Origin: a bacterium
GTDB lineage: Bacteria; Patescibacteriota; Minisyncoccia; UBA6257; JAGOQP01
Length of the DNA: 34,339 bases
Direction: 5' to 3'
Assembly: GCA_021814695.1 (NCBI GenBank)
Contig: JAKAHY010000008.1
Coordinates: 1 to 34,339, forward strand
The notes beneath the pieces are model-generated. The model was not told the origin of the DNA. It did no database searches and saw only the letters and a program-made list of their open reading frames with translations. This document shows, piece by piece, positions 5,796-33,425 of the stretch; position 1 is the stretch's first letter; every line of letters begins with the position of its first letter. The translations under genes were made by a program, and so were the position numbers.

Positions 5796-5837
5796 TTTGT
5801 CCAGGTTATTTCACGATCGTGAAATAACCTGGACAAA
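5796..5837. repeat. 42-bp perfect palindrome, copy 1 of the family
   Basis: The left half-arm is TTTGTCCAGGTTATTTCACG followed by A, and the right half is its exact complement around a central CGATCG (5814-5819 region). The 38-bp core starting TGTCCAGG is identical to copies 2 and 3. This copy stands alone in the divergent region between the winged-helix gene (minus) and the 195-aa membrane protein (plus). There is no T-tract, so it is not a typical terminator. Confidence 0.95.
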
Positions 5838-11679: not shown

Positions 11680-11698
11680 TTAAAAAGCTGACTTATCT

Positions 11699-11738
11699 AT
11701 GTCCAGGTTATTTCACGATCGTGAAATAACCTGGACAT
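11699..11738. repeat. 40-bp perfect palindrome, copy 2
   Basis: The 38-bp core is identical to copies 1 and 3 (half-arm TGTCCAGGTTATTTCACGA), extended by one A/T pair. It starts 19 nt after the stop of the 1691-aa gene and ends 67 nt before the Cas2/PaaX-like gene. Confidence 0.95.
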
Positions 11739-11805
11739 GACTAGAAATTAATTAAGATACTAAAAGTCGATAAATTATCATTAAAAATTAATCACTTGGA
11801 TAAAA

Positions 11806-12396: not shown

Positions 12397-12418
12397 TTAG
12401 ATTTATTTATAGAAGTCT

Positions 12419-12460
12419 TTTGTCCAGGTTATTTCACGATCGTGAAATAACCTGGACAAA
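12419..12460. repeat. 42-bp perfect palindrome, copy 3
   Basis: The core is the same as in copies 1 and 2, extended by two T/A pairs. It begins 22 nt after the stop of the Cas2/PaaX-like gene. Open frames that start within it and read FHDREITWT are products of the repeat and not genes. Confidence 0.95.
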
Positions 12461-32138: not shown

Positions 32139-33053
32139 ATGAATTCTATCGACTCTTATATAAAAGAATATTTGGATTATCTTGAGGTTGAAAAAAATCG
32201 CTCTCCCAAAACGGTTGAAAATTACCGCCGATATTTGAATATGTTTGCAAAAACCGTCGGCGCTAAAGATTTAAAGGATATAAATCAGGACTCAATCAGA
32301 AGATTCCGTCTGACGCTGGCAAGAAAACCCGGGGAAGAGAGTGAGTTTCTAAAGAAATCTACCCAGAGCTACTACGTGATCGCAATCAGAAATTTTTTGA
32401 AATATTTGGTTAAAAATAACATTAAGGTTGCGCTCCTTCCCGAACAAATAGAACTCCCCAAAATCCCCCAGCGACAAATAGAAATAATAGAATATACGGA
32501 TTTGGAAAGATTTCTAAACGGTCCGCAGGGCGATTCTTTGCGGGCAATCCGAGACAAAGCAATCCTAGAAATGTTATTTTCTACCGGTTTACGTATTTCG
32601 GAATTGTGCTCGCTTTCACGTTATCAGGATTTTGAAAGAGGGGAGATTACCGTCAGAGGCAAGGGTAGTAAATTGCGGGTAGTGTTTCTGTCCGACAGGG
32701 CCCGTTCGGCGATAAAAAAATATTTGGATAAAAGAGGGGATGCCGATGAAGCTCTTTTTATAAGCTTGTCCAAAGCTAAAAATCCGAAAGTTTTGGGGAG
32801 AATCATTCCCCGCACGGTCCAACGCCTGGTCCAGTTTTATGCCAAGAAAGCCGGAATTTTAGGTAAAGTAACACCTCACCAATTGCGCCATCAGTTTGCC
32901 ACCGATTTATTGATGAACGGCGCCGATATCCGTTCGGTTCAAGCGCTTTTGGGACACGCCAATATTGCAACCACTCAAGTCTATACCCACGTCACTAATA
33001 AGGAGCTCAAAGAAATCCACAAATCCTTTCACGGAAGACGGAGGATACGCTAA
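32139..33053 (+). CDS. Xer-type tyrosine recombinase, 304 aa
   Basis: An N-terminal SAM-like DNA-binding domain (about 5-90, YLDYLEVEKNRSPKTVENYR) precedes the catalytic domain. All six active-site residues are present: R152 (TGLRISEL), K175 (RGKGSKLR), H247 and R250 (TPHQLRHQFA), H273 (LGHANI) and Y282 (TTQVYTHV). Length and order match XerC/XerD, which resolve chromosome dimers at dif. It could equally be an element-borne integrase, since a tRNA gene with a duplicated 3' end lies just downstream. A member of the palindrome family begins 5 nt after its stop codon. Confidence 0.9.
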   Translation: MNSIDSYIKEYLDYLEVEKNRSPKTVENYRRYLNMFAKTVGAKDLKDINQDSIRRFRLTLARKPGEESEFLKKSTQSYYVIAIRNFLKYLVKNNIKVALLPEQIELPKIPQRQIEIIEYTDLERFLNGPQGDSLRAIRDKAILEMLFSTGLRISELCSLSRYQDFERGEITVRGKGSKLRVVFLSDRARSAIKKYLDKRGDADEALFISLSKAKNPKVLGRIIPRTVQRLVQFYAKKAGILGKVTPHQLRHQFATDLLMNGADIRSVQALLGHANIATTQVYTHVTNKELKEIHKSFHGRRRIR

Positions 33054-33058
33054 ATCCT

Positions 33059-33098
33059 TTGTCCATGTTAATTCACGATCGTGAATTAACATGGACAA
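33059..33098. repeat. 40-bp perfect palindrome, copy 4 (divergent but compensated)
   Basis: The half-arm TTGTCCATGTTAATTCACGA differs from the other copies at two positions (G to T, T to A). The other half carries the matching complementary changes, so the palindrome stays perfect. It lies 5 nt after the recombinase stop. Confidence 0.95.
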
Positions 33099-33144
33099 GA
33101 ACTGCCAAAAATCCGGGCGATAGATTCGTGGATTTAATTAATAT

Positions 33145-33160
33145 TGTGCTCCCGGGAGGA
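33145..33160. repeat. 16-bp direct duplication of the tRNA-Leu 3' end (copy A)
   Basis: TGTGCTCCCGGGAGGA occurs here and again at 33301-33316, where it covers the 3' end of tRNA-Leu (acceptor and T-arm bases). The copies are 156 bp apart. Such a duplication is the usual mark of site-specific integration at a tRNA gene. Confidence 0.75.
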
Positions 33161-33189
33161 AATTTTCACACTTACCCCCGACCCCCATA

Positions 33190-33211
33190 TAAGAAACCTT
33201 CCGGTTTCTTA
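33190..33211. other. Hairpin between the tRNA-end duplications
   Basis: TAAGAAACC (33190-33198) pairs with GGTTTCTTA (33203-33211) around TTCC. It is surrounded by short C-runs (about 33174-33186) and a G-run (about 33239-33243) that could form an outer stem. Confidence 0.5.
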
Positions 33212-33264
33212 CGTCGCTTCGCTCCTATTTTCCAACACGGGGGCTCGCATTCAAACCTCGTGCT

Positions 33265-33304
33265 CACATAACAAAAATAGGCCGTCGCCTATTTTTGTTA
33301 TGTG
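33265..33304. terminator. Bidirectional terminator after tRNA-Leu
   Basis: A perfect 18-bp stem (33265-33282 with 33287-33304) around CGTC, with A/T-rich flanks, touches the 3' end of the minus-strand tRNA gene. Confidence 0.8.
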
Positions 33305-33384
33305 CTCCCGGGAGGATTTGAACCTCCAACCCTTGCGGGACATGGTCCTAAGCCATGCGCGTATGCCAGTTCCGCCACGGGAGC
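33303..33384 (-). tRNA. tRNA-Leu, anticodon UAG
   Basis: Minus-strand sequence begins GCTCCCGTGGCGGAACTGGC and folds as a class II tRNA. The acceptor stem GCTCCCG pairs with CGGGAGC. The anticodon stem CATGG/CCATG encloses loop CTTAGGA, giving anticodon TAG (reads CUA-type Leu codons). A long variable arm (TCCCGCAAGGG) and T-arm GGAGG TTCAAAT CCTCC are present. CCA is not encoded. A 16-bp piece of its 3' end is duplicated at 33145-33160. Confidence 0.95.
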
Positions 33385-33396
33385 AAGTACGCTGGT

Positions 33397-33425
33397 ATCG
33401 TAATCAAAAAATAGTTTTTGTGCAA
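33397..33425 (-). promoter_or_regulatory. Promoter of tRNA-Leu
   Basis: Minus-strand TTGCAC (33425-33420), 17-bp spacer, TACGAT (33402-33397), 12 bp before the tRNA start. Confidence 0.55.

Follow-up and report, generated by a model that had tools for sequence, protein, structure and literature searches.

A gene-free repeat of about 150 bp at tRNA and protein gene ends in Patescibacteria, probably a mobile element

A duplicated tRNA-Leu end and the interval that it encloses

The window analyzed here (34,339 bp of a Patescibacteriota genome) carries a tRNA-Leu(UAG) gene whose 3' end is present twice, and the question that this locus raises is what lies between the two copies. The 16-mer TGTGCTCCCGGGAGGA occurs at 33145-33160 and again at 33301-33316 with zero mismatches. 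Chance is ruled out by shuffles, which gave an expectation of 0.01 matches at ≤2 mismatches for a 16-bp repeat, together with the genome-wide count of the 16-mer: a search for further copies in the 748-kb genome found exactly two, both at the tRNA-Leu(UAG) locus.

The original prediction had taken this duplication for a tRNA integration site next to a tyrosine recombinase gene, with two hairpins in an interval too short to hold an element. Its observations hold well: a tyrosine recombinase is encoded at 32139-33053, with 91 bp separating it from the first copy, both hairpins are in place (Table 1), and a duplicated tRNA 3' end is a signature of integration at loci that differ among relatives. 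The interval is not too short, however, since it is itself a dispersed repeat with a structured core and would be the element. We consider it rather probable that it represents a single integrated mobile element, about 150 bp long and devoid of genes, that inserts at gene ends.

A different, near-perfect 40-bp palindrome family (TTGTCCAGGTTATTTCACGATCGTGAAATAACCTGGACAA) has 8 copies in the same genome and none in 20 relatives, and both of its arms change together. Copies in the window lie at 5796-5837, 11696-11739, 12417-12460, and 33056-33099, and three others are found near tRNAs (C7:81060, C14:13612, and C4:47585).

Table 1. Features of the window copy and its target gene
Feature	Position	Strand	Remark
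tRNA-Leu(UAG), target gene	33302-33384	-	
X, proximal copy: functional tRNA 3' end plus one trailer base	33301-33316	-	
Terminator-like hairpin ATAACAAAAATAGGC-CGTC-GCCTATTTTTGTTAT, between A' and tRNA	33268-33301	.	
A', degenerate inverted copy of the tRNA 3' end, ATTCAAACCTCGTGCTCACA	33249-33268	+	weak fit in the window copy alone
Structured core, alpha class	33161-33259	+	covariance model match, 102 bits
P1 3' strand, CGGGGG	33238-33243	+	
Conserved junction strand, TATTTTCCAACA	33226-33237	+	
Variable P3 region; longer hairpin in other copies, missing in some	33213-33225	+	
P2 hairpin, TAAGAAACC-TTCC-GGTTTCTTA	33190-33211	+	covarying helix
P1 5' strand, CCCCCG, pairing with 33238-33243	33175-33180	+	covarying helix
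X, distal orphan copy of the tRNA-Leu 3' end, TCCTCCCGGGAGCACA in tRNA sense	33145-33160	-	geometry as in other copies

A repeat family at gene ends of Patescibacteria

Comparison of positions 33020-33420 with 61 genomes returned tRNA matches and a dispersed repeat at about 33160-33256, which is present in the same genome and in several relatives. Most copies of this repeat adjoin a tRNA gene, and beyond most of them the 3' end of that tRNA is repeated. In a covariance model search of 244 genomes of the order, 48 had copies of the core, with 1 to 11 in each. Among 73 alpha copies, 49 follow a tRNA gene within 230 bp of its 3' end, and 27 anticodons are represented; about one third lack an annotated tRNA 3' end in their vicinity. 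This remaining third includes copies at undetected tRNAs or at the ends of protein genes (polX, rpsI, and a thioredoxin-like gene at the 3' end, rplK and a copZ-like gene at the 5' end; gene names from our reading of the translations), besides copies at which neither kind of target was recognized. The core of the window copy recurs with 92-97% identity at 14 other tRNA targets in four genomes, and X, A', and the hairpin differ among these sites, suggesting that near-identical cores reach new targets.

An exact gapped pattern matched 29 stretches in 84,980 species genomes, all of them in records of Patescibacteria lineages or unnamed bacterial MAGs (metagenome assemblies, as are the named genomes in our comparison), and had zero matches in viral contigs. 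Judged by these searches, the family is seen only in the ultra-small Patescibacteria, with pattern matches also in unnamed MAGs. No Rfam family matched the core above its gathering score in the window or at the other loci searched, and we found no description of the element in the open-access papers that we searched.

Anatomy of the unit

Read in the sense of the tRNA, each unit of about 150 bp consists of X (the tRNA 3' end), a hairpin that often resembles an intrinsic terminator, A', the core, and a second, orphan X; it is gene-free. A direct repeat was recognizable (z over 5) in 47 of 69 copies, and its length ranges from 15 to over 100 bp across copies. A' is a degenerate inverted copy of X, and among 28 units the own tRNA fits it better than reassigned ones do (0 of 2000 permutations); taken alone, A' of the window copy matches its own tRNA weakly. 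An inversion of the tRNA in the same genome is not needed as the cause of A', because two genomes with the same tRNA orientation (G005 and G010) have no alpha match. Units stand in tandem at tRNA-Pro-CGG, Pro-GGG, Lys-CUU, Ser-CGA, and Ala-UGC, and six copies are oriented in the opposite direction relative to the tRNA.

Several further observations concern single copies. Two loci of G063 (L135 and L138) have inverted rather than direct flanking repeats (CAGGAAAGCACCCTCT / AGAGGGTGCTTTCCTG). Small palindromes (CCTGCCTACCGGCAGGCAGG and GTCCGCCC..GGGCGGAC) are nested in the cores of L028, L041, L045, and L046 and are possibly another mini-repeat. The tandem units at tRNA-Pro-CGG and -UGG of G002 (L207 and L215) contain each other's trailer hairpins, which would suit an exchange of units between the two genes.

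A conserved fold in several core classes

Covariation in the core is very strong. Across 82 distinct sequences, 91.8% of cells pair, and two-sided changes are found in 14 of 20 pairs (251 cells compared to 69 in shuffles), counts that are helped by an alignment fitted to the model, though the signal of the variable outer stem is large nonetheless. The sequences of this outer stem vary with the target. Slid structures score far lower than the core structure. A protein-coding role of the core (open frame PDP..R.L.VSYVASLL.SNTG) was rejected: in some copies the frame is shifted by the loss of 8 nt or by additional hairpins.

A second class, beta, was aligned independently as GGGGTC-[P1]-GTGnnGGAAA, with a loop closing P1 and covariation in 7 of 9 pairs. 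Alpha has the same junction strands with P1 open, and we therefore read the beta core as a circular permutation of the alpha core. With its natural circular permutants and its absence from Rfam, the structured motif merits structural study in its own right. Two additional classes, gamma and delta, are found at tRNA-Leu, Ser, Gln, Tyr, and His (L158 2541-2696, L198, L221, L220, L188, and L170); they have the X-hairpin-A'-core-X architecture in common with alpha though not the sequence, and have no Rfam match at the loci searched. One of these loci also contains a probable group I intron (L170 1520-1829; 48.3 of 50 bits, just under the Rfam gathering score).

Occupied and empty sites among relatives

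In three congeners, the 3' 16-mer of a tRNA gene is repeated downstream at 28 of 128 genes (10/48, 4/37, and 14/43 by congener) and upstream at none of the 128, and the set of occupied tRNAs differs among the three. The clearest case is tRNA-Leu-CAA, where G001 has an exact 151-bp insertion at a site that is empty in G002; the downstream flanks of the pair are near-identical and the 16-bp end is repeated. At tRNA-Leu(UAG), where the original prediction had proposed to compare relatives, the duplication is not fixed: the insertion is missing from G002 and G005, and a different (gamma) core takes its place in G001. Mobility of the element is well supported by inference.

The same data bear on the idea that the unit is an immobile cis-acting RNA, which would regulate tRNA operons from the 3' side or serve in their processing or termination and would include the X copy in its fold. 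The conserved structure, the position just 3' of tRNAs, and the complementarity of A' to X would all suit such a role. It would not account for copies at the 5' ends of rplK and the copZ-like gene or the 3' ends of rpsI and polX, and it is weakened already by the empty sites, by the patchy occupancy among congeners, and by the exact occupied/empty pair, so that we hold it to be quite unlikely.

The neighboring recombinase and other enzyme candidates

The recombinase beside tRNA-Leu(UAG), which the original prediction had connected to the duplication, is the only PF00589 protein of its genome. Ten relatives likewise have a single PF00589 protein whether alpha copies are present or not, and the protein is 69-81% identical across the family. 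We therefore assign it by sequence as a housekeeping Xer and not as the integrase of the element, and its adjacency is no evidence for a role because it is the sole such enzyme of the genome and conserved. In several family members xer adjoins tRNA-Leu(UAG), with the strand of the tRNA varying by species (L158, L159, L160, and L162).

This also decides against a scar left by a larger island that the adjacent tyrosine integrase had inserted and that was later deleted. Such a scar would look like this locus, with the tRNA 3' end directly repeated and a recombinase gene close by, but the recombinase is the single-copy Xer and the interval is a conserved repeat of similar extent at dozens of sites; this reading is refuted for the window locus and retains next to no probability.

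No mobilizing enzyme was identified among the families of site-specific recombinases, HUH transposases, and reverse transcriptases tested. Serine recombinases, HUH Y1 transposases, and reverse transcriptases are each absent from some tested carriers, which speaks against them as the mover: HUH Y1 (PF01797) had no match in the carriers G000, G001, G009, G035, G063, and G239, and reverse transcriptases are encoded in 9 of 11 genomes and absent from the carrier G239. The reverse transcriptase examined, on contig C5 of the window's own genome, G000, seems to belong to a diversity-generating retroelement (L179 4275-6963), with a variable protein, a template repeat, an Avd-like gene, and the reverse transcriptase. 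On a 3384-bp contig of the same genome (C15; L028), tRNA-Ala(GGC) is accompanied by an alpha element, and the contig also encodes a tRNA-Arg and a large serine recombinase with a 517-aa open frame. Of the families tested, Xer alone is present in all tested carriers and for this reason stays a candidate and no more, which might act on folded single strands like integrases do on the attC sites of integrons.

Differing gene ends and a possible mechanism

Whether the functional end of a target gene is native or imported can be judged only where it differs from the orphan. G002 offers such a case at tRNA-Ser-CGA: its two orphans preserve the 3' end that this gene has in G001, whereas the functional gene terminates in 28 nt identical to the Ser-GCU type. 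A T-stem change on the 5' strand of this tRNA lies upstream of X, and we therefore consider that gene conversion between isoacceptors or later compensation may explain this end. Compared to its sister G086, rplK of G087 is 88% identical in the orphan 5' end, 68% in the functional 5' end, and 77% in the remaining gene. An independent insertion with a permuted core is found at rplK of G110, where the orphan and functional starts agree in 20 of 20 residues with 15 of 20 codons changed, and where the orphan is up to 88% identical to the closest relatives and the functional start no more than 77%. The orphan rplK starts are closer to the relatives and are therefore taken as native.

By these comparisons we regard the displaced orphan as the native gene end at tRNA-Ser-CGA and at rplK of G087 and G110, and the functional end as probably imported. 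The functional rplK ends matched no donor among the sampled genomes, and they may also have diverged locally after insertion. By analogy, the orphan copy at 33145-33160 would be the displaced native end of tRNA-Leu(UAG). A simple target site duplication of fixed length is not favored because the Ser-CGA and rplK ends differ and the lengths of the repeats vary.

The alternating orientation of X, A', and X, joined by hairpins prone to fold back, could also arise by template switching during replication, with hairpins making the polymerase fold back or jump so that direct and inverted copies of a gene end form and the core spreads passively with no dedicated enzyme. That no tested enzyme family other than Xer is shared by all carriers agrees with this proposal, but compensatory change preserves the structure over many genera and one core with one architecture is found at many unrelated targets, protein genes included; we consider it rather unlikely.

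An integrating mobile element remains our preferred reading, which draws on features that are all observed at the level of sequence: the repeat family with its conserved structure, gene-end location and target-specific flanks, the occupied/empty pair, and the native-like orphans. The unit would insert at the 3' end of a tRNA or at a protein gene end, and at the loci where this can be judged the functional gene would obtain a different end, presumably arriving together with the unit, while the native end stays as the far-side orphan. The moving form may be a small circular or hairpin-ended DNA that recombines at X in trans, and the foldback of A', hairpin, and X together with the folded core might be recognized by a putative recombinase or polymerase.

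Beyond this, we assign only a small probability to selfish gene-end swapping, in which the folded core (as RNA or single-stranded DNA) would be the active part and the orphan native end an address for insertion at that gene end in other cells, with a different working end supplied so that the host survives. The synonymous codons of rplK and the flipped T-stem pair of tRNA-Ser would then reflect a working replacement end.

If our preferred reading is true, the element is among the smallest integrating elements known, and gene ends such as tRNA 3' halves and ribosomal protein starts would be exchangeable between isoacceptors and possibly species, in hosts with genomes of mostly about 1 Mb or less. 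The element can also mislead annotation through antisense-tRNA ORFs and orphan gene ends, and several contigs start or stop within it.

Comparison with known systems

Like the REP/BIME repeats associated with RAYT (HUH Y1), the units are short, structured, gene-free, and dispersed in intergenic DNA, but they target gene ends with duplication of the target, and HUH Y1 is undetected in most carriers tested. A DNA-transposon MITE was rejected, as the outer stems differ for each target and the repeats vary in length, unlike fixed TIRs and a fixed duplication length. Casposons insert at tRNA 3' ends with a repeat of 14-16 bp and are similar in this respect. In contrast to casposons, no Cas1 or TIRs are seen within the unit, and the functional and orphan ends are not always the same, as they should be after a simple target site duplication. 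Fungal mitochondria contain small double-hairpin elements near tRNA genes and duplications of tRNA 3' ends, which resemble the units as small hairpin elements beside tRNAs but have other hosts and another architecture.

Integron cassettes with attC sites are comparable in their tandem units that each end in an imperfect hairpin, in the short direct repeats at unit borders, and in a candidate recombinase of the Xer type. They differ in that the units described here have no ORF and no integron integrase (only the single Xer), form their hairpin from target sequence, and occupy many loci instead of one attI platform. The integrative elements of tyrosine integrases (ICEs, satellites, and prophages) likewise insert at the 3' ends of tRNA genes and of rpsI, are flanked by a direct repeat of the tRNA 3' end, and leave a second copy of the gene end beyond the element, with a functional end that can differ from the native one. 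Compared to them, the unit is only about 150 bp long with no genes and no integrase of its own, combines one core with 27 anticodons and several protein gene ends, and carries an inverted, degenerate copy of its target.
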